A DNA stretch of 64,000 nt from Anaerolineae bacterium (GTDB taxonomy: Bacteria > Chloroflexota > Anaerolineae > Aggregatilineales > J027): positions 1-64,000 of the forward strand of contig JAJTXY010000013.1 of the NCBI GenBank assembly GCA_021463865.1. Reading direction: 5' to 3'. Under the pieces are notes generated by a model. The model searched no databases and was not told the DNA's origin. It saw only the letters and a list, made by a program, of their open reading frames with translations. Shown here in pieces: positions 35,911 through 50,919 of this stretch. The translations under genes and the position numbers were made by a program. Position 1 is the stretch's first letter, and each line of letters begins with the position of its first letter.

Positions 35911-36492
35911 TTATGCGCCGTTCCTATCTGATTTTTCAGTCTCGCTCAATCGCCCAACTTCCAATTCATGTTCCAACTGTTCTTTGCGGAACTTCTGGCG
36001 AATTTTGGCTTGTTCCATGCGAAGGGCCTGTGCCTCATTTTCGGGCTGTAAGCGAGGCACATCACGGGGACGGCCTTCTTCATCCAACGCCACATAAACC
36101 AGATAGGCGGTGTTGGTTTCAGTGACCTCCCCGGTGTAGGGATGTTCGGCTTTGACCTCGACCCGCACTTCCATTGAAGTCCGCCCAACATAAGTCAGTT
36201 CGGCGTAAATCATGACCAAATACCCGATCAAGATCGGTTTGCGAAAGGTCATGGAGTCAATTTGTACAGTGACGACGGGCGACCCGGCATGGCGCATGGC
36301 GGCTAAAGCTCCGGCTTCATCTACCCGCTTCATGATGACCCCGCCGTGTACATTGCCGAGGCCATTGGCATCTTGTGGCCCCATGAGGTCACTGAGCGTG
36401 ACGGCGGATTCCGCAGGGGTCTTGGGTTTCATCAAGCTCTGTTCCTGCGTTTTGCGTTGGACGTCATGCAGAGCATTGGCAAATTTAGGCAT
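35911..36492 (-). CDS. Acyl-CoA thioesterase, hotdog fold
   Basis: 193 aa. The hotdog signature NGLGNVHGGVIMKRVDEAGALAA is followed by VTVQIDSMTFRKPILIGYLVMI and a later ETNTAYLVYVALDEEGRPRDVP, as in YciA/BACH-type thioesterases. A helical, charged C-terminal tail of ~50 residues is extra. It would hydrolyse acyl-CoA in the cytosol. The first codon lies inside the end of the glycosyltransferase gene (8-base overlap). Confidence 0.85.
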   Translation of the reverse strand: MPKFANALHDVQRKTQEQSLMKPKTPAESAVTLSDLMGPQDANGLGNVHGGVIMKRVDEAGALAAMRHAGSPVVTVQIDSMTFRKPILIGYLVMIYAELTYVGRTSMEVRVEVKAEHPYTGEVTETNTAYLVYVALDEEGRPRDVPRLQPENEAQALRMEQAKIRQKFRKEQLEHELEVGRLSETEKSDRNGA

Positions 36493-37639
36493 GGTTAAGC
36501 ACTTTCTGATAAATCGCCTGCAATGTTTGGGCAGATTTTTCCCATGTAAACTGCTGCGCTTGTTCCAATCCGGCCAGTTTTAGGCGTTTATGGAGGTCAA
36601 CATCATCCAATAAACGACGCAGCGCATCAGCTATTGCTTCACTATTATACGGGTCAACCAATAACGCGGCATCTCCGGCAACCTCCGGCATCGAGGACAC
36701 GATTGAGGTGACGACTGGCGTTCCACATGCCATAGACTCGGCTACTGGAAAGCCGAACCCCTCATACAGTGAGGGATAGGCGGTCACCGTCGCGCCGCTG
36801 TATAAGGCAGGTACATCGGCATCATCCACAAATCCAGTAAAAAACACCCGATCTTCGAGGCCCAAACGTTTGACCGTTTCAAATATGGGGTTATCCAGCC
36901 AGCCCTTGCCCCCCGCGATCACCAGCATCACATCTTCAAAAGCCGGGCCAAGCATCGCTAGTGCTTCCATCAAGCGACCATAATTTTTGCGCGGCTGAAC
37001 CGTGCCAATCGAAAAAATGTAGCGGCGATCTTCGGGGATGTGATAACGCTGACGCACGGCATTCAATTGGGCCGGATCAACAATCGGCACATAGCGCGGA
37101 CTGACCCCACTGAGTACCACCGAAATCTTGTCTGGCGGCGTCCCATACAGTTCGATTAAATCATCTTTGGTCGCTTGGGAATCGGCAATCACATGATCTG
37201 CCCGGCGCACCGAACGCGGCACGACCTTGTCCAAATAAACTTTGAGGACAGGGGGCGCGGTTTCCGGGGTACGCACAAATGACAGGTCATGCACCGTCAA
37301 AATCGTTTTGGTGCTGGGCAGTGTTGGCGGCAGCGTAAAATCTGTCGCGTGAAACAGTGCCATCGGGCCAACAAAAGACTCTACGACTAATGGCACTTGA
37401 GCGCGATGCCAAAGTCGGGCAAACCACAGCGGGGTGATACGGGTGGGTTTCCAGGTGAAATTTGGGCCGGGGATGGGTGGGAGTTTGGATTTTTCTGCCC
37501 CGGCGACAAACAATTTATAAGGAGTTTGACGATCTAGCGCCGCCAAACCCCCAATAAGGTCACGTACAAGTCGACCAATACCCGCCCCTTGTTCATAGGC
37601 AGCAGTATAGTCAATGGCAATGGGTCGGTCACTGAGCAT
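36485..37639 (-). CDS. Glycosyltransferase family 4 (GT-B fold)
   Basis: 384 aa. The N-terminal half has HATDFTLP, ILTVHDLSFVRTPE and RRADHVIADSQATKDDL. The C-terminal donor domain has FSIGTVQPRKNYGRLMEAL and SLYEGFGFPVAESMACGTPVV, the E-x7-E motif of GT4 enzymes. It would transfer a sugar from a nucleotide sugar in glycan synthesis. It starts right after the GtrA stop and overlaps the thioesterase gene. Confidence 0.93.
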   Translation of the reverse strand: MLSDRPIAIDYTAAYEQGAGIGRLVRDLIGGLAALDRQTPYKLFVAGAEKSKLPPIPGPNFTWKPTRITPLWFARLWHRAQVPLVVESFVGPMALFHATDFTLPPTLPSTKTILTVHDLSFVRTPETAPPVLKVYLDKVVPRSVRRADHVIADSQATKDDLIELYGTPPDKISVVLSGVSPRYVPIVDPAQLNAVRQRYHIPEDRRYIFSIGTVQPRKNYGRLMEALAMLGPAFEDVMLVIAGGKGWLDNPIFETVKRLGLEDRVFFTGFVDDADVPALYSGATVTAYPSLYEGFGFPVAESMACGTPVVTSIVSSMPEVAGDAALLVDPYNSEAIADALRRLLDDVDLHKRLKLAGLEQAQQFTWEKSAQTLQAIYQKVLNHA

Positions 37640-38263
37640 TTACTCAGCCGCAAGAGAATCAGATGCGGGTTTATGATGATGCTTGTCTACGTCGTTGTAT
37701 GTCCAATAGCGGTTCATGAAGAAATTCCAGAACATCGCCACCGCGACAGCAATCGCCTGTGCGATGTTGGTGCCCAACCGATTTGCGACTGCCCTTTCGA
37801 CATCAGGATGCCCTAAGAGGCTTTCGGCAAACTGCCCCAATGGAGAATAGACCAAGCTGACAAAAATCAAGCGGGCGATGACAGCAACGGTGTTGATAAA
37901 AAAGAACTGAACCAATTGCAATCCTACATGCCGCGAACGGGAATCGGGATAAGTCCAATAGCGATTCCAAAAGAAATTGCTGGCAACCGCCGCCGTAAAT
38001 GCAATCCCGGATGCCATTGCGACATGTAACTGTTCATTTGGGCCTTCGGGATGAAGCAGGGTGTGTTGCAAAAGATTGAGCGTGCCAAAATCCACCACCG
38101 CCCCAATCGTACCGACAATGGCAAATTTCAGAAAACGTTCCACTTCTTTGGCTTTGGGGCCAAAACGCCGCGAAATGAATACGATGAACGGGTCAATAGG
38201 GGAATGAATTCGGCGAGAAATTTTGACTTCCTCCGCTGGATGAGTATTAACTGCGGTAGACAA
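37640..38263 (-). CDS. GtrA-like membrane protein
   Basis: 207 aa. Four membrane helices with the GtrA/DPMS family motifs: FLKFAIVGTIGAVVDFGTLNLL, AFTAAVASNFFWNRYWTYPDSR and the second half NFFMNRYWTYND. GtrA proteins are thought to flip polyprenyl-linked sugars or modify surface glycans. It lies between the ligase and the GT4 gene on the same strand. Confidence 0.88.
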   Translation of the reverse strand: MSTAVNTHPAEEVKISRRIHSPIDPFIVFISRRFGPKAKEVERFLKFAIVGTIGAVVDFGTLNLLQHTLLHPEGPNEQLHVAMASGIAFTAAVASNFFWNRYWTYPDSRSRHVGLQLVQFFFINTVAVIARLIFVSLVYSPLGQFAESLLGHPDVERAVANRLGTNIAQAIAVAVAMFWNFFMNRYWTYNDVDKHHHKPASDSLAAE

Positions 38264-38273
38264 TGACCAACCC

Positions 38274-39758
38274 TCAATTACTGATATGGACGATTGATTG
38301 ATTAGAACGACTCAGCAGGACTGCCAATAATCCTAGCAGTACCCCGATCACCAAAAACAGATTGTTGACATATAACTTGTCAAACAAGCTGTGAATACTC
38401 AAATGTGTCCAGATACCCATCAACCCGACGGCCATACCGCGCTCAATCGGCGTGTTGGCGTTCTGAATAGCCCTAAAGGTCAGGTGGATAACGACTGCGC
38501 CCATGACCAGATAGGCGATTAAACCGATAATGCCTGTTTCTGCCAGAAGGTTTAAATAATAATTGTGTGCGTGGCCTAAAGCAAGAGGCCAATTGACCAA
38601 CGCAAATTTTTCATAAGCCGCCTCATAATTTCCAAAACCGACTCCTAACAATGGCCGTTCCTCCGCCATGCGTATCGCGGCCTGCCAATGCGCTAAACGC
38701 TCGACTACTGCAAAATTGTCATCGTTAATCACCGCGCCGCGCATATCCCGGAAACCCGAAAAATCCTCGGTAAAGCTGGTGATACGGTCACTAATGCTGA
38801 TTGGCAGCAGTCCCGCCGACCACAATCCCACAAAAAGGCCACCTACAATAACCATTGCCAATGTGCCCTGCCAGAATTTGGGCGGGGTCAGCCAGATCAT
38901 CACAACCGCCGCCGCCGCAAAGCCGATCCACGCACCCCGACTCCATGACACTAGCAGTCCAGCCAAGATGATGCCTGCCATTACCCCATAAAGGATCACC
39001 AGCGAAACATCGGTTTTCCAGCGGGCCGATTCTTGCCGATGCTGCCATGCGCTAATCAAATACCCCCATGTCGTGCCGAGGGCCAATGGTAAAGTTAAGC
39101 CCATCAATGCCCCAAATGGATTGGGTTGCCCAAATGTGCCGAAGGCTCTGAAATAGCGATAATCTAAAATCCACAAATGAGCCGCACCGGACCCGCCGCG
39201 AAATTGATAAATGCCGATGATGGCCTGTATCACTGCTGCCAACAGCACCCCAAATACAATCCACTGCCAGCGTTTTTCGGCAAAATCCGCGACCAGATAG
39301 GCCAGCAGCGCGATTTCGGCCCATTTCACCCATTCGCTGACGCCATGCCCCAACGAATAGGCATTGGGTAGGGTCAATAACGTCGCCCCCAGAAAAACCG
39401 CCAAGCCGATATACAGGGCAATGGCACGCTGATGGGCCGATTGAACAAACGCCTCCCGATCGGTGATTTTGCGCAGTCCCCAAACCCCCACCACCATCAC
39501 CAGTGCCAATTGTCCGGGGTCGGCGGGCAGATTGAAGGTCGCCTCCGTTTCAATCAGCGTCTTGAGGGGCGCGACACACATCAACATGACCAGCGCGAGA
39601 GATGGCTCAATGAACATCAAGATGATGAGCAAGGCTACCGCGATCAAGGCGGTTGAAACAGTGAGGGGCAAGGCAGCAATCAATACCCCGCTGATAACTG
39701 CCAGCCCCAACCAGCCCCACATTGGAAAGGAGGCGCGAGTCCAATTAGCTGTTCGCAT
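38274..39758 (-). CDS. O-antigen ligase-like (WaaL/Wzy_C) membrane protein
   Basis: 494 aa from the ATG at 39758, overlapping the epimerase stop by 14 bases; the upstream ATG at 39806 would add 16 residues. About eleven hydrophobic segments. A large central extracytoplasmic loop runs from about 305 to 385. The conserved [22 protein letters not shown] followed by [16 protein letters not shown] is the Wzy_C signature. Ligases of this family attach lipid-linked glycans to an acceptor or polymerise them on the outer membrane face. Confidence 0.9.
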
Positions 39759-40695
39759 GAACTTTCTTTTGGAAAAAGGCGAAGGTTTCTTGGAGGCCCT
39801 CTTCAAATTTGATCTTTGGTTCCCAACCTAGCACCTCACGCGCACGGGTGATGTCGGGCTGCCGTACTTGTGGGTCGCCTGCAATGCGCATCTCTTTCTT
39901 GATGACGATACCACCCTTGCTACCGCTAATGCGATTGACCAATTCAGCCAGTTCTAGCATGGTCATTTCAGTGTAGGGGTTGCCGATGTTGACGGGCATG
40001 TGATAGTCGCTGTTCAATAGGCGATAGAGGCCTTCAATCAGATCGGAATAGAAACAGAAACTACGGGTCTGTGTGCCTTCGCCGTAGACAGTCAAGGGTT
40101 CGCCGTGTAGGGCCTGTGCTATGAAGTTAGGCACAACCCGACCATCATCCAATGACATACGCGGGCCATAGGTATTAAAGATACGCACGATGCGGGTTTT
40201 GACGCCATGTTCATTGTGATAGGCCATCGTCAGGGCTTCAGCAAAACGCTTGGCTTCATCATACACCCCGCGTGGGCCAATCGGGTCAACATTGCCGTTG
40301 TAGTCTTCGGTTTGAGGGTGAACCAGCGGATCGCCATAGATTTCGGAGGTCGAGGCCAACAAAAAGCGTGCGCCTTTGGCCTTTGCCACACCGAGGGCAT
40401 TATGTGTTCCCAATGCGCCGACCTTCAGGGTCTGAATGGGATATTTTAAATAACCGGGTGGGCTGGCGGGTGAGGCGAAATGCAGCACCGCGTCAATCGG
40501 GCCATCCACAAAGATATAATTCGAGACATCATGCCGGATAAATTTAAATTTCGGGTTGCCTGCAAGGTGGGCGATGTTATCTATACTACCCGTGATAAAG
40601 TTATCCAGCGCGACAACTTCGTAACCCTCTTTCAAAAAACGGTCACAGAGATGTGAGCCGAGGAAGCCAGCCCCGCCTGTAATGAGTACGCGCAA
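39745..40695 (-). CDS. UDP-glucuronate decarboxylase-like NAD-dependent epimerase
   Basis: 316 aa from the TTG at 40695, preceded by AAAAGGGG at seven bases; the longer frame up to 40755 has no better start. Rossmann motif [14 protein letters not shown] (7-20). [41 protein letters not shown] and [14 protein letters not shown] (catalytic Y-x3-K) are hallmarks of UXS. It makes UDP-xylose from UDP-glucuronate for cell-surface glycans. It is first in the polysaccharide cluster. An arnA-like or other dTDP-sugar epimerase is less likely. Confidence 0.88.
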
Positions 40696-40783
40696 TTTGA
40701 CGCCCCTTTTTAGATTGAAAACATCAGAAAAATCCGGCGTGGAAGTGTACCACAAAACCGAATGCCCTGCTTAATTGGAAATT

Positions 40784-41368
40784 TTAATCGTCATCGTCTC
40801 GAAACAGCACCATGCTGTCATTTGCGCCACCTTCGACGTTCTCCAGCGCGGTTATGAATTTTTTCTCAAAAATTTGATGGGTACGGTTGTCATATAGACA
40901 TACCACCACCTGCTGAAGATATTCGCGTTTTTCAAACGAATAATCAATGATCTGTTTTGCCAAAATTTCGGCGCAGTCTGCCACCGGGAAGCCAAAAACC
41001 CCGGTAGAAATCGCCGGCAGGGCGACGGAATTTAATCTATTGGCCTCGGCGAGTTCCAAAACTGACCGAAACGCGCTGGCAAGTTTGGCGTGTTCATCGC
41101 CTTCCCCCATCATAGGGCCGACAGCGTGAATCACATATTGGGCTTTAAGGTTGCCGCCGCCTGTGATGGCTGCCTTGCCCACCTCGCAGTGCCCGATGGC
41201 ATAACATTCTTCTTGGATGGATGGGCCACCTTTGCGTGCAATCGCCCCTGCCACCCCTGCGCCCAAAATGAGATAACTGTTGGCGGCATTGGTGATGGCA
41301 TCGGTATCGAGTTCGGTGATGTCGCCCTGCATTAATTTGACCTGTAATTTATTGAGGACAAATTCCAT
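40784..41368 (-). CDS. Macro-domain protein (ADP-ribose/O-acetyl-ADP-ribose binding)
   Basis: 194 aa from the ATG at 41368, with GAGGATT before it. The macro-fold motifs are VKLMQGDITELDTDAITNAANS, GAGVAGAIARKGG, CEVGKAAITGGGNLKAQYVIHAVGP and VALPAISTGVFGFPVADCAEI. These proteins bind or hydrolyse ADP-ribose linkages. The acidic C-terminus ends FRDDDD. It diverges from the TIR-domain gene; the shared intergenic region holds the promoter at 41445-41473. A link to the TIR protein (which may make ADP-ribose products) is an inference. Confidence 0.9.
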   Translation of the reverse strand: MEFVLNKLQVKLMQGDITELDTDAITNAANSYLILGAGVAGAIARKGGPSIQEECYAIGHCEVGKAAITGGGNLKAQYVIHAVGPMMGEGDEHAKLASAFRSVLELAEANRLNSVALPAISTGVFGFPVADCAEILAKQIIDYSFEKREYLQQVVVCLYDNRTHQIFEKKFITALENVEGGANDSMVLFRDDDD

Positions 41369-41444
41369 CGTATAATCCTCATGCTGGTCTATCGCTATTG
41401 TACACTCGCATTGTACCGTATCCGCATTAACATAGGAAAATCGT

Positions 41445-41473
41445 TTGCAATAAAGCCATATCGTAGGCATAAT
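41445..41473 (+). promoter_or_regulatory. Promoter of the TIR-FGE gene
   Basis: TTGCAA (41445-41450) and CATAAT (41468-41473) are 17 bases apart, 45 bases before the ATG at 41518. It lies in the divergent region with the macro-domain gene. Confidence 0.55.
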
Positions 41474-41517
41474 GTATCATATCCTACATAGAAATGTTTG
41501 TCCCCCAAAGGCTGGTT

Positions 41518-43158
41518 ATGTCGGAAAAGCAGCTCAAACTTTTTGTCAATTATCGCCAGGCGGATAACGCCGATTTTGTTCAGCATATGCGGACATGGTT
41601 CATGATTCGTTATGGGCGCGAAAACGTGTTCATGGATTTCGACACCATTCCCGAATTTGCCCGTTTTGAAGATTTCATCCGCGAAAAAGTGCGGGAGGCA
41701 GACGCGGTGGTTGCCGTCATCGGGCCACAGTGGTTAAAGCTGATGCAAGATAAAACAGCGGCGGGTAAACCGGATTATGTGCGGATTGAATTGGAAGAAG
41801 CTCTCAAACACGGCAAGGTCATTGCCCCAATTTGTATCAAAGATGCCAGTGTGCCAGATGAAACCCTAATCCCGCCAACTCTGCGTCCCATTTTTGAGCG
41901 CAACATTGCCCAATTACGCGATGGTAGCGATATTTTGGAACGCATTGACCGCATCACCCATAGTTTGGAAACCCAAATTGCTGCACAGGGTCTTGCACGA
42001 GTCGTAATTGAGCCAACAACTGAAGCCGACCCGAAAGCGGATACTTTTATCGGTGTCTATGACGCCTTTGATTATTTTTTGGAAGCCGAACAGAGCCACG
42101 ATTGGCCCAAAGCCCTCGGTTGGATCGCCAAAATCCGGGAGATGGGGGTCAATGTTCCGGTTGATTTAGGCCAGCGCGAAGCCCGTATCTTAGAAACCCT
42201 CCGTGTGGAAGAGGAAAAGCGGCGGCGGCGTGAAATGGCGGATTATCTTTATGGTTTTGCGCGGCGTATGAAAAAACGCGGCCTGCCTGCCGAAGAAATT
42301 TGGGATGTCTTGGTTCAAGTTTGGCAAGTGGAACCCGATTATGACCCCGATGGTTTAGGTGGTAAGATGGTTGCCCAAGTTGCGCCACCACCAAAAATAG
42401 ATTTTTCCAAAGCCGTGCGCGATGTCATCGGCGGCCCGTTTGAATGGATGGACATTCCCGGTGGGGTGGTCGTTTTGGAATATGGCGAATGGAAGGATAA
42501 TAAATGGGTGGTCAAAAATACCCAGAATTTCACCATCCCCGATTTTGCCATTGCCAAATATCCTGTCACCAACAAGCAGTATCAGGCGTTTATAGCTGCC
42601 AAAGATGGCTATAACAACGCCAAATGGTGGGACTATTCAGAATTTGCCCAAGCATGGCGGGATGAACATAAAACCCCTGCCGATACGACTTTTGCCGGTG
42701 ACGACTTGCCGCGCACCGACGTTTGCTGGTATGATGCAATGGCGTTTTGTCACTGGCTGGCACAGCGCACCCAACAGAAAATTACCCTGCCTACCGACCA
42801 GCAGTGGCAGCGGGCCGCGATTGGTGATACGGGCTGGCAGTATCCTTGGGGTAATGAACCACCCGACAAAGATCGGTGTAATTTTGCACAGAACGTTGGG
42901 CAGACCACCCCCGTCACCCAATATCCCAAAGGTACAAGTCCCTATGGGGTCATGGATATGAGTGGGAATGTATGGGAATGGTGTCTAACGGAATGGGGTA
43001 CGGATAGTATAAATACTAATACAAATCTCCCTCGCGTGGTGCGGGGTGGCTCGTGGTGGTATGACTATTCAGTTGTCCTTCGCGCTGCCTACCGCTCCTG
43101 GTACTATCCTGGTAGGTTCAGCTTCAGTCAGGGTTTTCGTTTGGCCCGCTCTCTTTAG
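41518..43158 (+). CDS. TIR domain / formylglycine-generating-enzyme-like (FGE-sulfatase) protein
   Basis: 546 aa from the ATG at 41518; an in-frame ATG at 41494 adds eight residues. The TIR domain (1-145) has KLFVNYRQADN, FMDFDTIPE and VRIELEEAL, with Glu 91 in the place of the NADase catalytic Glu. A charged helical linker (about 160-290) follows, then an FGE/SUMF1 C-type-lectin-like fold (about 305-546): FAIAKYPVTNKQYQAFI, WYDAMAFCHWLAQ, GNVWEWCLTEWG and the C-terminal VVRGGSW...GFRLARSL. Enzymatic FGE Cys residues are not evident. The end of the gene resembles a DGR variable region. Likely signalling or defence; exact role unknown. Confidence 0.85.
   Translation: MSEKQLKLFVNYRQADNADFVQHMRTWFMIRYGRENVFMDFDTIPEFARFEDFIREKVREADAVVAVIGPQWLKLMQDKTAAGKPDYVRIELEEALKHGKVIAPICIKDASVPDETLIPPTLRPIFERNIAQLRDGSDILERIDRITHSLETQIAAQGLARVVIEPTTEADPKADTFIGVYDAFDYFLEAEQSHDWPKALGWIAKIREMGVNVPVDLGQREARILETLRVEEEKRRRREMADYLYGFARRMKKRGLPAEEIWDVLVQVWQVEPDYDPDGLGGKMVAQVAPPPKIDFSKAVRDVIGGPFEWMDIPGGVVVLEYGEWKDNKWVVKNTQNFTIPDFAIAKYPVTNKQYQAFIAAKDGYNNAKWWDYSEFAQAWRDEHKTPADTTFAGDDLPRTDVCWYDAMAFCHWLAQRTQQKITLPTDQQWQRAAIGDTGWQYPWGNEPPDKDRCNFAQNVGQTTPVTQYPKGTSPYGVMDMSGNVWEWCLTEWGTDSINTNTNLPRVVRGGSWWYDYSVVLRAAYRSWYYPGRFSFSQGFRLARSL
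43034..43158 (+). repeat. Candidate DGR variable region (VR) at the end of the TIR-FGE gene
   Basis: The last ~40 codons run RVVRGGSW, then variable-looking codons around conserved RAA, R, P, R and GFR landmarks. Many of the codons between landmarks are NNC or NNT (TAT, GAC, TAC, TCC, TTC, AGC, AGT, GGT), as expected when AAC/AAT template codons are mutagenised at adenines. The hairpin at 43167-43189 follows. The template repeat is not in the window, so limits are approximate. Confidence 0.55.
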
Positions 43159-43166
43159 ATTGCGAC

Positions 43167-43189
43167 GCCAGATGGTTTGACCATCTGGC
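43167..43189. other. Perfect hairpin/cruciform just downstream of the candidate VR
   Basis: GCCAGATGG (43167-43175) and CCATCTGGC (43181-43189) form a 9-bp perfect stem with loop TTTGA, eight bases after the TIR-FGE stop. No T-run follows, so it is not a typical terminator. Known DGR targets carry a 7-10 bp stem with a short loop at this place. Confidence 0.65.
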
Positions 43190-43244
43190 TATATAGAAAG
43201 CCCCGTAAACGAGGCTACTGATTGAGTTATATGAATGAAGGTGT

Positions 43245-43460
43245 ATGATGCGCCAAATCATTATTCACAAAGCCGATGAGGACGAAACCGGATATTGGGC
43301 CGAATGTCCCAGTTTACCCGGCTGTTATAGTCAGGGCGAAACGATAGACGAAATCATTGCCAATATGAAAGATGCCATTCAGTTGTGGATAGACGACGCC
43401 ATTGAGCATGGCGAACCTGTCCCAGAGGATACTTTTGATATTGTGGTAATGACGGTATGA
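43245..43460 (+). CDS. hicB: HicB-family antitoxin
   Basis: 71 aa. The partial RNase-H-like HicB fold reads MRQIIIHKADEDETGYWAECPSLPGCYSQG, then TIDEIIANMKDAIQLWID, as in HicB/UPF0150 antitoxins. It lacks a separate C-terminal DNA-binding domain. It overlaps hicA by 4 bases (ATGA). It should bind and block HicA and repress the operon. Order is antitoxin first. Confidence 0.9.
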   Translation: MMRQIIIHKADEDETGYWAECPSLPGCYSQGETIDEIIANMKDAIQLWIDDAIEHGEPVPEDTFDIVVMTV

Positions 43461-43684
43461 GCAAGCTACCTGTCGTATCCGCACGTGAATGCGTAAAAGC
43501 CCTCGAACAAATTGGATTTGAGGTGTCGCGCCAAACAGGTAGTCATATCAATATGCGCCGTGATGATCCTTATTGCAAAGTAGTTGTCCCCAATCATAGT
43601 GAAATCAAAAAGGGGACACTCCGCAGCATTATCCGCGATGCAGGGCTGACGGTTGATAAGTTTATTGAACTCGTGCGAGGTTAG
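43457..43684 (+). CDS. hicA: HicA-family mRNA interferase toxin
   Basis: 75 aa. The dsRBD-like fold has SARECVKALEQIGFEVSRQTGSHINMRR with the catalytic His at residue 30 in GSH, then a Gly-Thr-Leu motif GTLRSIIRDAGLTVDKFIEL. It cleaves mRNA when free of HicB. Its 3' end overlaps the convergent gene at 43662 by 23 bases. Confidence 0.92.
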   Translation: MSKLPVVSARECVKALEQIGFEVSRQTGSHINMRRDDPYCKVVVPNHSEIKKGTLRSIIRDAGLTVDKFIELVRG

Positions 43685-46600
43685 TGCCTAATTCTCGGCT
43701 CCGCTGCACCAACGCCAGCAACAGCACAAAAATGAAACTCAGATTGATGGCAAAATAGGCCGAATCAATCATGCCGTGTGCAAGGAAATCCGCCATACTG
43801 CCCATCGCGCCTAACACAATCGCCAGCAACACCGGATTGGAATGCCGCACTTGACGATACGCCGCCAGTGCCGTCCGCCAAAATGCGACTTGCAGCCACA
43901 CGCCAATCAAAACCCCGAAAATGCCCAGACGCACCCAATAATCCAACACCACATTATGCGGATGGGAAAGGTCGGGGTCAGCCCATGCTTCGGACAAAAT
44001 ATAGCGCCCCCGATAAGCATACAAAAATTGATCGAGGCCTACCCCCGTAATCGGATGGTCTTTAATCAATTCAAGTGTACTGCGCCATAAGTTGACCCGA
44101 AATAAGGTGGTGCTGTTGCTAAAATCGAAAACGTTGCGGAGTCGAGGAATCAACCGAGATAAGGGAATCAACGCGACCAAACCAGCCACCGCCAATCCAC
44201 CTAATGGCAGCCATGCCCGTCGCCCCTGCCAGCCCAACAGGATGATGGCGAACGCTGCGGGTAGACCAATCGCAATCGCGCCGATACTCTGGGTTAGCAG
44301 CACCGCCAGCAGCATAATCACACCGCCGACACCCGCATAGATCCGTCGCCATGCCCCAACTGGCAAAATGACATAGGCGAAGGCAAACGGCAGACAGCGT
44401 CCCAATTGCAGAGCGACACTGTTCGGTGAGCCATAAATTCCCACTAACCGCTTTGACCCCTCCGGCGTCAACACCACATAGGTTTCGGTGACGTAATTGT
44501 AAAGCCCAACTAAGGCCACCACTGTACCTATCAGAATCATCGCTTCTGCCAAAAGCGACAGGTCTTTTTCTTGAAGACGAGCCACCCGCAACAGCAGGTA
44601 GAATACTAATGGGTCAAAAATCATCGTCCGCAGTTCACGCAGGGCTTCAGGTCGCAAATCGGCCCAAGAGAGGGAAGTAAACGCCAGCCCCAAGAATATT
44701 ATTAACGCGATGTCGAGCGAACTTAGCCGATTCCACACGTTGAGGAGGGCAATATGTGGGGAGATCTTTGACGGGGTGGATACACGGCGCACCTTAGCCC
44801 ATTCATATAACCCACGTCCGATAATGGCGGCGGCACTAATCGCCAACATGACCTCAACCACCGCAATCAACTGCACATAGGCATCTAGGGTAGCGGTGAA
44901 ATAGGCCGACCAAAACAGCACTGCCAACAGGCCCATCAGCGGGCGGTTGAATACGATCACTGCAAAGACCGCCAATGCCGCCAAAGTGCCCCACACAATT
45001 GGCGAATAATAGGCCACACTCATGGAGGTAAGGCTGACGATCAAGGCTGGAGTATCGCGCCGCAAAAAGGTTGTGACCATATCGCCCCACGAGAGGACAA
45101 CGCCAACCACAAAAATGAGTGACACGATGAGGGTGAGTGCAACATCGGCGATATTTTGCAGGGCCTCCCGTGAAGGCATCTTGACTTGGCGGAACGGCAA
45201 ACGATAGCCCACCCCCACCATGCCAACAACGGATAATAGGCCAAAGATCGCGGCGATAATCTGCACACGCTTATATGGCAGGGTATCCGGTGCGCTGGCA
45301 ACCGCGAAGCCCGCAATGGCCCAACGATCATCACCCTGCCACGGACGATGCACTATTTCGGCGACATGCAGCCCGTCATCAAGCCCACTGGCAATCGAGA
45401 TTAAATCAGTGGTCGGCTTTCGGCTAGGGGAGGTCAAAATGAGGAAGGATTCACCCTGTTTATTGGTGGGTAATTTATTGGCTTTCTGCCCGTCAATTGT
45501 AATCGCCAGATACGCCACATAATCATCGCGCCGCACCAGCATAGCGAAGTCCGTGCCACGAAAGGTTACTCGAATCGAATTTTGGATGTCATACACATTC
45601 GGGTCATTCGGATCAACGGTTCCCGCATCCGCCCCCAAATCGCTAAACTGCCAATCGCCCTCATAGGTAGTGAAGGGGTTGATGGCGGGATATAGGCCGG
45701 ACAGCAAGGCATCGTTTTTAAATGACAATCCGGCGGCCTGCCATTCCGCCAATCGAGGTGCAATCGCAAAACCTTGAATCGGGTCATCCGCAGGGACATC
45801 CGGTTGCCAATGTTGGACAATCAGCCCGCCAACCCATGCCCATTCGCGTTCGGCGCGACGAAAAGCCGCTTGGGTATAGGCGATTTGATCTGCTGCCGAC
45901 ACCTGCCCCCAAATCGAAGGGGGGCCATTCCAATCGGCAGGCAGTGAATTCCAACCAAAATTACTGCCCCACAGCGCTTTTGACCCGTCGTCATGAGCAA
46001 CCATTTCTTCACGTAGCAAAATCAACCGCGAAAAATTCAGCGTGGCCTCATCGGTGGTGCGGTCATCTGGGGAGGCGTTGTAACCATAGGGTTTGCCCGC
46101 CGCCGCATCAAAAAAATCTTTGCCACCGAGGTCATACATCGCCCGTAGATATAACACGTCGCTCAAATTTTCCGGGCCATCTTCGACATTGGGCGCAAGG
46201 GCAGCAGCGATAACCGTCGCCTGACCATCCGCCTCATGAATGGCAAGATAGGCAGCTTTTAACATCGCTACATAGAGCGCCGGACGGGGATCGAGGCTGC
46301 CCCAATGCTCACGAATATTTGGCTCGTCCCAGACTTGATAGTAATCCACCTTGTCGCTGTACCGTTCGGCAGCGGCCCGCGCAAAATTGGCAAAGGCGTC
46401 TACACTGACGGGTGGAGCAAAGGCATGATCGGGGGCTTCGCGGTGACGTGCCCAACGCGGTGTGCCATCCAGCACCAACACTAATTTTAGGTCGGGATAT
46501 TGGGCAACAGCCTCCACTATCGCGTCATAGGCTAACCAATCGAATGTGCCTTGTTCCAGTTCGACCTGTTCCCAATAGACGGTCTGGCGCAGCCATGTAA

Positions 46601-46847
46601 ATCCAAGCCCGTCAATCGTCTGCAATTGGGTGTTTAATTCGTCGGGGGCATACTGCGTCAATTCGACATTGACCCCACCAATGGATTGACGATAGGGCAT
46701 CGCTTGAATTTCGGTAGCAAGCTCCCAACCACGTATCGCTTTGGCCTCAGCGGAACGGCGATCCAAAATCGCGCCGATACTGACCAGTAGCACTAAACAG
46801 CAAGTCAGAAAAATAACCCAGCGGCGCAGCACAGGTGAGTTCATCAT
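43662..46847 (-). CDS. Fusion: glycoside-hydrolase-like domain and O-antigen ligase (Wzy_C) membrane domain
   Basis: 1061 aa. After an N-terminal membrane helix (about 12-29), a TIM-barrel-like glycosidase domain (about 50-390) has LGFTWLRQTVYWEQVE, KLVLVLDGTPRWAR and VDYYQVWDEPNIREHWG, where the Glu in DEP takes the place of the clan-A acid/base. A beta-sandwich region (about 390-520) follows, then about thirteen membrane helices. The end has HPITGVGLDQFLYAYRGRYI and SHPHNVVLDYWVRLGIFG, the Wzy_C ligase motif. It may process and attach or polymerise surface glycans. Fusion of the two activities is unusual. Confidence 0.8.
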   Translation of the reverse strand: MMNSPVLRRWVIFLTCCLVLLVSIGAILDRRSAEAKAIRGWELATEIQAMPYRQSIGGVNVELTQYAPDELNTQLQTIDGLGFTWLRQTVYWEQVELEQGTFDWLAYDAIVEAVAQYPDLKLVLVLDGTPRWARHREAPDHAFAPPVSVDAFANFARAAAERYSDKVDYYQVWDEPNIREHWGSLDPRPALYVAMLKAAYLAIHEADGQATVIAAALAPNVEDGPENLSDVLYLRAMYDLGGKDFFDAAAGKPYGYNASPDDRTTDEATLNFSRLILLREEMVAHDDGSKALWGSNFGWNSLPADWNGPPSIWGQVSAADQIAYTQAAFRRAEREWAWVGGLIVQHWQPDVPADDPIQGFAIAPRLAEWQAAGLSFKNDALLSGLYPAINPFTTYEGDWQFSDLGADAGTVDPNDPNVYDIQNSIRVTFRGTDFAMLVRRDDYVAYLAITIDGQKANKLPTNKQGESFLILTSPSRKPTTDLISIASGLDDGLHVAEIVHRPWQGDDRWAIAGFAVASAPDTLPYKRVQIIAAIFGLLSVVGMVGVGYRLPFRQVKMPSREALQNIADVALTLIVSLIFVVGVVLSWGDMVTTFLRRDTPALIVSLTSMSVAYYSPIVWGTLAALAVFAVIVFNRPLMGLLAVLFWSAYFTATLDAYVQLIAVVEVMLAISAAAIIGRGLYEWAKVRRVSTPSKISPHIALLNVWNRLSSLDIALIIFLGLAFTSLSWADLRPEALRELRTMIFDPLVFYLLLRVARLQEKDLSLLAEAMILIGTVVALVGLYNYVTETYVVLTPEGSKRLVGIYGSPNSVALQLGRCLPFAFAYVILPVGAWRRIYAGVGGVIMLLAVLLTQSIGAIAIGLPAAFAIILLGWQGRRAWLPLGGLAVAGLVALIPLSRLIPRLRNVFDFSNSTTLFRVNLWRSTLELIKDHPITGVGLDQFLYAYRGRYILSEAWADPDLSHPHNVVLDYWVRLGIFGVLIGVWLQVAFWRTALAAYRQVRHSNPVLLAIVLGAMGSMADFLAHGMIDSAYFAINLSFIFVLLLALVQRSRELGTNLARVQ

Positions 46848-48491
46848 TTAGTTTGTCCAGCGGGGTGTGGAGGTCTGACCATCATTGGTAATTTGGCGGG
46901 GGAGGCCAGAATCCGCCTCAACAACCCAAAGATTATTTTGATACAACACGGCAATTTGCCGACCTGATGGACTCCATGTAAACGGAGTGGCATTTTGTTG
47001 GGTTACTGGGCGAATCCCCTGCAAGCCTTGAGGCGGAAAAACTCGGTTTGGATTGCTGCCGTCCCGATCGGCAATCATCAAATCGTATTCGGTGCCATAG
47101 CTGTTGAGGGGTTCACGGGCTTGCAAAAAAGCAATGCTGAATTGGGCCTGACCATCCGGCCCAACCGAGACAGGGGAATAAACCGGACTAGCCCAAATGC
47201 CCGTCTTGGAAATGAGGCTGTTAAGCGCCAATGATCCGTCGGCTTTAAAAACACCTACATCAAAAATAATACTGTCAGTAGGGGCTTCGTTGCTATGCGA
47301 CGGGCCATGCACCGTCGTTACCACCCATTGCCCATCTTGCGACCATGAGAGGGTAGGTTGCCAAACCCATTCATTCACAATTGCAGTGTTGTAATAAGCG
47401 AAGTTGAGCGCAAACGGCCCAAAATCGCCATTCCCATCACCTGTACCCAGATTTACCAACCCAACTCCATTCGATTTGGCATAGGCAACTTTTGTGCCGT
47501 CCGGTGACCATGCAAAGCGCGTCCCCCAAAACGCAAATTCCCCCGTGACATTATCGGTTATGACCTCATCTATATCTAAGGTATCCCCATCACGCGGATT
47601 GAGCCGGACGACCCATAGATCGTTATAGGCAACCCAGCCTTGAAAACCACCTCCAGCATTGGCGCTCGAATAATAGAGGTTATACGGCTGACCGGGTATC
47701 CATCCCCCCGACAAAATGTTGTTATAGCCCAATGGAATCGGGACAGGACTGTTGGTATCCAAAATCACCCACAATTCGTTAGAAAAGGCCGCATCGTTTG
47801 GGTCATCGGTTTTGCGCGTATACAACAGTTGGCGTCCATCCGCCGATAAATCAAAGACCCTTCCATCAAGGTTGTTATCAGTGGTCAAGGGCATTGGGTT
47901 GCCACTGTTGCCACGTATCATCCATGCCTGCCCGCTCGAAATATAAGCCAGTGTCCCATCAATCACCACAGGTTCAAGGGTATCGGTCTGACCGACAGCG
48001 ACAATTTGATTTTTGGGTTCTTTAATCACGATGCGAGATTTTTCACGGCGGGTACGTTCGGCCCCATCAGCGATGATAATGGTATAGCAGATTTGAACTT
48101 CCCCGTTTTCGCCGCGTTCCAAAATCCGCGTTTCGCCGGGTTCAAGGTTGGTACTGGGTTGCTCAACTTCCTCGAAGTCCAGTGGCTCGGTTTTACTACA
48201 ATCTTCGGTTTCTGTCACGCGCACCACTGTCACCGTCATGCCATCGGTGACTTGGGTGAATTTGGAGGGTGTAACTTCATCCAGTGGGTTGAGAGTGATA
48301 TTGGCCTGTCGCAAAAACTGCTCAACCGACAGAGGTCGATCAAACACAAAGGCCCGCTGTGTGCCATCGGCGATCAGGGCCACCCGAATTTCGCGCTCCC
48401 CCGAATTTTCCGGCTGACAGGCCGCAAGCAGTACCAGCACCACCAATAACATCAGTCCAACTTGCCGCTTCAATGTCATTTCCAAATCCAT
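46848..48491 (-). CDS. Lipoprotein with DUF348/G5 domains and a WD40-like beta-propeller
   Basis: 547 aa. The signal peptide VGLMLLVVLVLLAACQ contains the lipobox LAAC. A DUF348-like domain (VFDRPLSVEQFLRQANITL) precedes a G5 domain (ETRILERGENGEVQICY...REKSRIVIKEP), then PD40/WD40-like repeats with AWSPDGTKVAYAK, SWSQDGQWVVTT and TWSPSGRQIAVLY, about five blades. It is exported and anchored outside. It immediately follows the glycosidase-ligase fusion start (46847/46848), so the two may be one transcript. Role unknown; cell-wall or glycan binding fits the G5 domain. Confidence 0.8.
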   Translation of the reverse strand: MDLEMTLKRQVGLMLLVVLVLLAACQPENSGEREIRVALIADGTQRAFVFDRPLSVEQFLRQANITLNPLDEVTPSKFTQVTDGMTVTVVRVTETEDCSKTEPLDFEEVEQPSTNLEPGETRILERGENGEVQICYTIIIADGAERTRREKSRIVIKEPKNQIVAVGQTDTLEPVVIDGTLAYISSGQAWMIRGNSGNPMPLTTDNNLDGRVFDLSADGRQLLYTRKTDDPNDAAFSNELWVILDTNSPVPIPLGYNNILSGGWIPGQPYNLYYSSANAGGGFQGWVAYNDLWVVRLNPRDGDTLDIDEVITDNVTGEFAFWGTRFAWSPDGTKVAYAKSNGVGLVNLGTGDGNGDFGPFALNFAYYNTAIVNEWVWQPTLSWSQDGQWVVTTVHGPSHSNEAPTDSIIFDVGVFKADGSLALNSLISKTGIWASPVYSPVSVGPDGQAQFSIAFLQAREPLNSYGTEYDLMIADRDGSNPNRVFPPQGLQGIRPVTQQNATPFTWSPSGRQIAVLYQNNLWVVEADSGLPRQITNDGQTSTPRWTN

Positions 48492-48566
48492 TCCACGTTA
48501 TAATCAGCCAACGTTCAAAATCCTAGCACGCCCCTCCACTTGTAGCAAGGAAACATAGGGAAGCAG

Positions 48567-49631
48567 ATGACAAATAATCGTTGGATGCTCTACGGTGCGT
48601 ATGGCTATACGGGTGAATTGGTCGCGGAGGAGGCGCTAAAACGCGGACACAAACCGATCTTGGCAGGGCGCTCGGCGGAAAAACTCATCCCACTGGCCGA
48701 ACGGCTTGGCCTCGAATATCGTGTGTTCAGCTTACACGATAGCACCGCTTTGAAAAATGCCCTCGCTGACGTTGATCTTCTGTTCCATGCCGCTGGCCCA
48801 TTCATCTATACCGCTTCTCCGATGTTGGATGCCTGTGTCGAGACGGGGACAAATTATGTAGATATTACTGGCGAAATCTTGGTATTCCGCAAAACATTCA
48901 AGCGCGACGAAGCGGCCCGTCAAAAAAACATTGCCCTGATTTCGGGGGTCGGGTTCGACATCATTCCAACCGACTGTCTTTCGAGTTATGTCGCCAGCCA
49001 AGTCCTCGAAGCCGTCGAACTAGAAATCGCCTTCCAAGCCATTTCCCAAACCAGTGCCGGAACAGCTAAATCCGCTTTAGCAGGTCTTGGCAAGGGGGGG
49101 ACGGTGCGCCGCGATGGTCAACTCATCCCCTATCCACTCGGCAAGGGGGCTAAACAAATCCGCTTTTCGCATGGCAAAGAGCTTTGGGCCATGCCGATTC
49201 CTTGGGGCGATTTAGAAACGGCCTACCGTGCCACTGGGATTCCCAATATCACCACCTATATGAGCTACCGCCCGCGCATGATTCGCACGGTCAAAACATT
49301 TAGCCCCTTGTTCCCCTATCTGCTGGCAGTCAAACCTGTGCGCCGCCTGATTCAATGGTGGGTGGAAAAACGCATCACCGGGCCAGATGAGCACCTGCGT
49401 CAAAGTGGAAAATCATATATCTGGGCGAAGGCTACCGATAAAAATGGCAATTCCAAAGAGGCGTGGTTGGAAACGATGGAAGCCTATCAATTGACGGCAG
49501 TGGGTGGGGTACGCTGTGTGGAGAAAATTTTTGAGCAGCATCCGGTGGGAGCGCTCACGCCTTCACAAGCGTTTGGAGCAGATTTTGTTTTAGAAATCGA
49601 AGGCACACGTCGCTTGGATAAATTAGACTGA
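48567..49631 (+). CDS. Saccharopine dehydrogenase-like / trans-acting enoyl reductase family protein
   Basis: 354 aa. The Rossmann start is WMLYGAYGYTGELVAEEALKRG, followed by ILAGRSAEKL, the order of the SCCPDH/trans-acting enoyl reductase group. AGPFIYTASPMLDACVETGTNYVDITGE and GVGFDIIPTDCLSSYVA are family motifs. It probably reduces a double bond on a lipid or polyketide, or acts as an NAD(P) oxidoreductase. Its precise substrate is unknown. An AAGGAA site precedes the ATG. Confidence 0.8.
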   Translation: MTNNRWMLYGAYGYTGELVAEEALKRGHKPILAGRSAEKLIPLAERLGLEYRVFSLHDSTALKNALADVDLLFHAAGPFIYTASPMLDACVETGTNYVDITGEILVFRKTFKRDEAARQKNIALISGVGFDIIPTDCLSSYVASQVLEAVELEIAFQAISQTSAGTAKSALAGLGKGGTVRRDGQLIPYPLGKGAKQIRFSHGKELWAMPIPWGDLETAYRATGIPNITTYMSYRPRMIRTVKTFSPLFPYLLAVKPVRRLIQWWVEKRITGPDEHLRQSGKSYIWAKATDKNGNSKEAWLETMEAYQLTAVGGVRCVEKIFEQHPVGALTPSQAFGADFVLEIEGTRRLDKLD

Positions 49632-49749
49632 CAATTGGAAGCCGCCCTATCACGGTGGTATACTCTTCAAGGTTTGGTGCGTGTCATCCCCTACATCAAA
49701 TCGAAACGAATTTTGAATACCCTACTATTTGGATGGAGGACGAAGATCA

Positions 49750-50919
49750 GTGAATCTTCACGAATATCAGGCAAAACTACGCTTTGCCGAATTTGGGATT
49801 CCCGTCCCACGTGGTAAAGTGGCCTTTAACGCAAATGAAGCCTATGAAATCGCCAAAGAATTAGGCGGTGTCACCGTCGTGAAAGCCCAAGTGCATAGCG
49901 GTGGACGCGGCAAGGCAGGCGGGGTCAAAGTTGCTAAGAACCCCGATGAAGCCCGCGAACATGCCAGCAAAATCCTCGGCATGGACATCAAAGGCCACAC
50001 CGTCAACAAAGTGTTAATTGATCCCGGTGCGAACATCAAAGGTGAAATTTATCTCGCCGTAACCAATGACCGTGCCGCCCGCAAGCCGCTCATTATGGCA
50101 AGCTCCGAAGGCGGGATGGATATTGAAGAAGTCAACCGCACCGCACCCGAAAAAATTAAACGCATCCACATTAACCCCCTCATCGGCCTCCGCAGCTATC
50201 AAATTACCGAACTGGCCTCCGGGATCAATCTGCCACACGATTTGTGGAAGCAGTTCGAGAAAATTGCGCTGGGTCTATATGAATGTTATGCCGCCAGCGA
50301 TGCGACCCTATGCGAAATCAACCCCCTCGCCGTTGTAGAAGAATATGGGCAGACCATTTTGAAGGCACTCGACGGCAAAATGACGATTGATGGCAATGGG
50401 TTGGGTCGTCATCCTGAATTAGAGGCCCTGCGCGACACCTCCGAAGAACCCCAAGAGGAAATCACCGCCCGCGAATCTGACCTGAGCTACGTAAAATTAG
50501 ACGGGCAAATCGGCTGTATGGTCAATGGGGCAGGGCTGGCAATGGCAACGATGGACATGACCGCCCACTTTGGCGAACAATATGGCATCGGCCCAGCCAA
50601 TTTCTTGGATGTCGGCGGCGGCGCTGACCCTGAACAGGTGGCGGCAGCTTTACGCATTATCCTGTCCGACAAAAACGTTAAAACGATTCTGATTAACATT
50701 TTCGGTGGCATCACACGCTGCGACGATGTGGCACGCGGCATCATCACGGCCATGAACGAAGTTCCCACCCAACTGCCGATTATCGTCCGGCTCATCGGCA
50801 CGAATCAAGAAGAAGGCTTGGCGATTATCAACAGCGCCAATTTGACCAATATGACCGGGGCCAAGACCCTGTATGAAGCCGCGCAAAAGGCTGTCGAAGC
50901 CGTCCGAGGAGCGAAGTAA
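49750..50919 (+). CDS. sucC: Succinyl-CoA synthetase beta subunit
   Basis: 389 aa from the GTG at 49750 with GGAGG ten bases before; the conserved start is [20 protein letters not shown]. The ATP-grasp domain has [20 protein letters not shown], and the CoA-ligase part has [13 protein letters not shown] and [16 protein letters not shown]. It forms the heterodimer that makes ATP or GTP from succinyl-CoA in the citric acid cycle. SucD starts two bases after its stop. Confidence 0.97.

Follow-up and report, generated by a model that had tools for sequence, protein, structure and literature searches.

The 64,000 nucleotides of Anaerolineae DNA analysed here (the window) contain a gene for a protein in which a TIR domain is joined to an FGE/C-type-lectin domain, and its C-terminal tail raises the question of whether a diversity-generating retroelement (DGR) located elsewhere in the genome writes the sensory end of this protein. 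In the explanation that we prefer, and to which we assign a probability of roughly 0.6, the gene encodes a TIR effector with a non-enzymatic FGE/C-type-lectin sensor, whose last 41 codons form a DGR-type variable region (VR); the gene would be a remote target, served in trans, and a ligand would switch the predicted TIR NADase. If this is right, a retroelement elsewhere in the genome tunes a chromosomal TIR effector that carries its own sensor domain.

Domain architecture of the TIR-FGE protein

The gene (41494-43158, forward strand) starts with an ATG at 41494, with a further in-frame ATG at 41518, and encodes 554 amino acids, arranged as a TIR domain, a helical linker and an FGE/C-type-lectin domain according to the open reading frame, Pfam domains and orthologs. 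The TIR_2 domain (residues 17-122; 41542-41859, forward strand) is matched with an E-value of 7e-8 and includes Glu99 in the motif YVRIE, which is invariant in 10 relatives and, judging by its position in the motif, is a candidate for the catalytic residue of the predicted NADase. The FGE-sulfatase / C-type lectin domain (residues 318-552; 42445-43149, forward strand) is recognised by Pfam and was modelled with AlphaFold2; alone it reaches a pLDDT of 96, and this FGE-only model was used instead of the poor full-length model from ten sequences (pLDDT 56). It superimposes on TvpA (2y3c) with a Z of 26.1 and an rmsd of 2.3 over 207 residues, and on Mtd (1yu0) with a Z of about 15. No PADLOC defence-system profile matches the protein at an E-value of 0.01; we regard it as probably a bacterial immune protein.

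The VR occupies the 3' terminus of the gene and falls within a C-type-lectin/FGE fold, as is expected of a DGR target. Its sequence, RVVRGGSWWYDYSVVLRAAYRSWYYPGRFSFSQGFRLARSL, comprises a 5' constant part (RVVRGGSW; 43033-43056), a variable core of 25 codons (43057-43131) and a 3' constant part (GFRLARSL and the stop; 43132-43158), all on the forward strand. The preliminary description of this DNA had proposed a TIR-FGE protein with these C-terminal landmarks, and the open reading frame, the Pfam matches (TIR_2 and FGE-sulfatase) and the tail sequence all agree with it. Upstream lies a divergent macro-domain gene (40784-41470, reverse strand), identified by domain search, syntenic in the congeners examined and a possible partner. 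Just 3' of the TIR-FGE gene is a HicB-like antitoxin gene (43248-43457), for which tblastn at the related loci searched gave no match.

Features shared with non-variable FGE domains

Several features that were initially taken as signs of a DGR proved to be of wider occurrence. The layout RVVRGGSW...R...P...GFR is present as described but is not diagnostic, being common to most of the 52 FGE domains of the order, in which R-V-x-R-G-G-S-W, R, P and GFR are conserved whether the domain is variable or not. The excess of NNC and NNT codons is likewise real, with 20 of 25 codons in the core (80%) against 284 of 505 in the remainder of the gene (56%; p = 0.02). We dropped it as a DGR marker, because syntenic orthologs with a conserved tail score equally (NNY fraction 0.76-0.80). 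A likeness of the 5' flank codons to DGR templates (19/21) is also a weak sign, the same 19/21 being reached by a non-variable FGE.

Divergence of the tail from a sister species

The variability of the tail was assessed in one pair, the window gene and its ortholog in the sister metagenome-assembled genome CFX10, the only close relative available (91% amino acid identity). Between the two, pN and pS are 0.015 and 0.25 in the N-terminus and 0.077 and 0.405 in the FGE domain before the VR, and pN rises to 0.283 in the VR core; both VR flanks show zero differences, synonymous sites included. For the 41-codon tail pN/pS is 1.84, compared with a maximum of 0.37 among segments of the gene that do not overlap this tail. 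A different residue is encoded by 13 of the 25 core codons, against 29 of 194 comparison codons (p = 8e-5), and among codons that keep their residue, 1 of 26 is changed in the VR and 41 of 152 in the FGE domain (p = 0.011). The nucleotide differences in the core fall mainly at codon positions 1 and 2 (17 of 21), with four at third positions, and the transition/transversion ratio is only suggestive (p = 0.06).

When the template-A sites are taken from related, non-cognate templates (TR7, TR35 and that of G048), the differences in this one pair occur at 15 of 33 A sites and at 5 of 81 non-A sites (p = 3e-6). The control ortholog pair from the congeners G002 and G004, whose tail is under purifying selection, leans the other way (1 of 32 A sites against 13 of 73). 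As far as sequence can tell, the divergence of the tail is the pattern that a DGR leaves, but A-randomisation of one template does not explain the four third-position differences, for which drift of the template is one conceivable source. A comparison of the locus among close strains had been suggested earlier; carried out at the level of species, it returned a tail whose differences concentrate at A sites, a pattern from which the four third-position changes depart. An even spread of variation through the gene, named at the outset as the outcome that would speak against a DGR, was not observed, and the tail varies between the sister species in the DGR pattern. A search of the CFX10 assembly for a reverse transcriptase (RT) found none, though the CFX10 VR differs.

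DGRs elsewhere in the genome and the order

As anticipated, the RT lies outside the window: the genome's only RVT_1 protein is on another contig (C7:10535-11182) and carries IGNLTSQ, which fits the DGR RT motif (I/V/L)GxxxSQ (PMC3521204). Avd genes are found on C7 and on C35, both above the NF033474 cut-off. C7 contains a complete DGR, with RT, Avd, template (TR) and the VR of an FGE target, which differs from the template by 20 mismatches at A and 0 elsewhere. On C35, an Avd, a TR and a VR occur without an RT, so that this locus probably already works in trans; its target is a TIR-NACHT-FGE protein, followed by the second Avd and the second template, and VR and TR differ by 24 A and 0 non-A mismatches over 75 bases. 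This locus spans 7272-10620 of C35 (L017; G000:C35), and its VR is one codon longer than the template. Because the genome carries a DGR-type RT together with two Avd genes and a pair of A-rich templates, homing in trans, as first proposed for the window gene, is physically possible.

Related arrangements occur in other genomes. In G048, of the same order, one template serves four FGE targets on both strands over about 33 kb (C15; L155, L156), with 1-2 non-A mismatches of about 96; the targets include TIR-NACHT-FGE and kinase-NACHT-FGE-like proteins, their domains read from sequence. G003:C69 (L112; 7599-15173) holds a DGR with a template, an RT of 398 amino acids and a short Avd-like open reading frame, and its VR is situated inside a 1542-amino-acid open frame rather than at the frame end.

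Runs of TTCTG such as TTCTGATTTTCTGAATTCTG, with at least two copies in the 60 nucleotides after the stop, follow 9 of 50 FGE genes (for example L001:2360-2420, reverse strand; L017:10002-10060, forward strand; L122:6880-6937, reverse strand; and L142), including both verified DGR targets of the window genome. At other ORF ends they were seen in 2 of 244 cases, both of which turned out to belong to FGE genes that the filter had overlooked. The run is absent after the window gene, its CFX10 ortholog and the G048 targets, and may possibly be a DGR 3' element. There is also a second family of TIR-FGE proteins, which lacks the helical linker and is represented by G000:C34:201943-203190 (L122) and its relatives L127 and L128; the tail of this family is likewise divergent and NNY-rich, with no template found nearby.

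Search for the cognate template

The known templates do not account for the window VR. Under the rule that only A positions may differ, it shows 21/75 non-A mismatches to TR7 and 17/81 to TR35, compared with 0/82 and 1/86 for the C7 and C35 VRs used as positive controls; by their non-A mismatches TR7, TR35 and the templates of G048 and G003 were ruled out as its writers. As the preliminary description had stated, there is no template repeat near the gene: no template/VR pair occurs in the scanned window region 36001-50000. A DGR self-scan that did recover C7, C35, G003:C69 and G048 was empty around the window gene and its orthologs. Searches for a third template in the window and CFX10 assemblies with A-rich patterns, a flank pattern allowing three mismatches and BLAST found none, and neither did BLAST for a cognate template in 154 genomes of the order or a search of viral contigs by exact flanks.

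The genome-wide search proposed at the beginning thus has a divided outcome, in that the RT, the two Avd genes and the two A-rich templates are there, while a near-copy of 43034-43158 that differs only at A is absent. An assembly that is 97% complete and split into 59 contigs contains no template matching the VR at all non-A sites, the relation expected of a DGR target, and at this level of completeness a 130-bp template could be missing. The most fitting place for the window gene is among genes that work like remote DGR targets, a placement that stops short of membership of an active DGR, since the template match was tested and is lacking in the assembly.

The palindrome after the stop codon

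Eight bases past the stop lies the palindrome GCCAGATGG-TTTGA-CCATCTGGC (43167-43189), with a 9-bp stem. The hairpin exists as originally noted, but the role ascribed to it, that of a cruciform for DGR homing, does not hold: copies are dispersed at many sites in the genus, the stem is broken in the CFX10 ortholog (z of -0.28, against -4.83 in the window), and the verified VRs of C7, C35 and G048 are followed by no such hairpin. Hairpins of the BPP-1 type have GC-rich stems of 7-10 bp and 4-nt GRNA loops (PMC3240598), and the loop here is TTTGA. Most likely, the palindrome is not part of a DGR target at this locus. The dispersed palindrome, which resembles CCAGATGGTYTGACCATCTGG, occurs in at least ten places in G003.

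Turnover of the gene at a conserved site

In G002, G003 and G004 the same site holds a TIR-FGE gene between macro-domain, epimerase and O-antigen-ligase-like genes. These TIR-FGE genes are only 47-56% identical (tblastn), compared with 84-99% for the neighbours, so the gene turns over as a whole allele. G003 is as near to the window species as CFX10 is in these neighbours (epimerase pS 0.12), and its TIR-FGE pS is 0.74, near saturation. Across 40784-46847 of the window, the TIR-FGE gene is an allele-replacement hotspot between neighbours conserved in the genus. In the G002 and G004 orthologs the tail is fixed. One speculative view, which we consider rather unlikely, is that the TIR-FGE immune gene at this fixed site alternates between two states, the tail being fixed in G002 and G004 but written in trans by a wandering DGR template in the window species and CFX10. 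Gain or loss of a template would then toggle adaptive sensing gene by gene, with the whole allele also turning over between species.

Origin of the variable tail

We read the window gene best as a remote, orphan DGR target that was written in the recent past. Against this reading stand the missing cognate template, the CFX10 assembly without an RT, the four third-position differences in the core and the absence of the TTCTG run that follows the verified VRs of this genome. In the proposed mechanism, the FGE/C-type-lectin domain would be a ligand-binding sensor and not an enzyme. A constant nucleotide frame would be kept around codons whose first two positions are rewritten from the adenines of the template RNA by the error-prone RT, with RT and Avd acting from other contigs (C7, with the second Avd on C35). 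As for the cognate template, it would either lie in sequence that the assembly lacks or have been lost after the VR was written. Ligand binding at the variable face would turn the TIR NADase on, and the adjacent, syntenically conserved macro protein may handle ADP-ribose products. Action in trans, ligand sensing and NADase output are parts of this mechanism that we infer for the TIR-FGE protein.

A tail of this kind could also arise by ordinary positive selection, if the FGE loop meets a fast-evolving ligand and point mutation and selection act without a retroelement. This would suit the observations that these columns also vary most across the 52 FGE domains, DGR-free ones included, that four of the core differences fall on third positions and that the assemblies yielded no cognate template. 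It is nonetheless an improbable account, as the constant codons of the VR are frozen at synonymous sites beside an FGE stretch with a pS of about 0.41, the differences land on template-A positions, and purifying selection acts on the same loop in the syntenic G002 and G004 orthologs. Much less probable still is segmental gene conversion, in which FGE paralogs would have swapped tails. The genome has ten FGE genes, and among congeners the TIR-FGE gene at this site is replaced in its entirety, both of which speak for such an exchange; yet no paralog with the window tail or flanks exists in either assembly, and the constant frame is identical, with only A-type codons differing. We infer that the tail owes its sequence to a DGR rather than to selection alone.

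The time at which it did so is a further point. A DGR may have acted in, or close to, the ancestor that the window species and CFX10 share, the template then being lost and the tails now being ordinary alleles. This is a sub-case of the preferred explanation, with the DGR origin common to both and their probabilities overlapping, and we hold it tentatively as a possible course of events. The CFX10 assembly without an RT, the lack of a template in both assemblies, the fixed tail at the same site in G002 and G004, and the DGR7 VRs of Thiohalocapsa, which likewise have no matching TR in their genome (PMC10907252), are in line with it. On the other hand, RT and Avd are still present in the window genome, and many changes at A sites with almost none in the constant frame are easier to reconcile with rewriting that took place close to the split or later than with long drift.

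Comparison with known systems

The FGE domain of the window protein shares superfamily and fold with the enzymes FGE/SUMF1 and EgtB. In FGE enzymes the catalytic cysteines are found in the segment after GGS; in the window protein, unlike in these enzymes, this segment is the variable core, which has no Cys. TvpA of Treponema denticola (2y3c), a DGR variable protein whose template is known, has the same fold but no TIR domain. Mtd of BPP-1 (1yu0) likewise has a C-type lectin fold and a VR that is 3'-terminal in its gene. BPP-1 differs in that its VR must be followed by a hairpin with a GRNA loop (PMC3240598), which the window palindrome does not fit and which the verified VRs here do without.

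Parallels are also found among remote targets and in conflict systems, where FGS domains occur (PMC7159879). The remote variable proteins of cyanobacteria are C-type-lectin paralogs encoded at a distance from the RT, and the signalling domains at their N-termini include TIR-like ones (PMC7517822). They were assigned by a nucleotide identity of at least 50% to a DGR VR or TR (PMC7517822), a threshold that the window VR passes but that does not discriminate here, because non-variable FGE controls also pass it.

In Thiohalocapsa, the C-type-lectin/FGE sensors that DGRs diversify carry conflict domains, TIR and NACHT among them, and there are targets in trans and VRs that lack a matching template in the genome (PMC10907252). 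The conflict sensors of Thiohalocapsa PB-PSB1 (Dore et al. 2024, PMC10907252) resemble the window gene in having an FGE/C-type-lectin VR domain that is connected, by fusion or by association, with TIR or STAND parts, and in the presence of several DGR loci per genome, remote targets and one locus with template-less VRs. They differ in that their VRs vary in populations, whereas the window gene was compared with one sister species, and in that the helical linker between TIR and FGE in the window protein contains no recognised NTPase. DGR-diversified remote conflict sensors are thus already a known kind, under which the window gene, in our analysis, is best filed as another probable case. If this is right, it is a further instance in Chloroflexota of remote immune sensors tuned by a DGR, and it offers a natural comparison within one syntenic gene, whose tail is frozen in two species but rewritten in two more.
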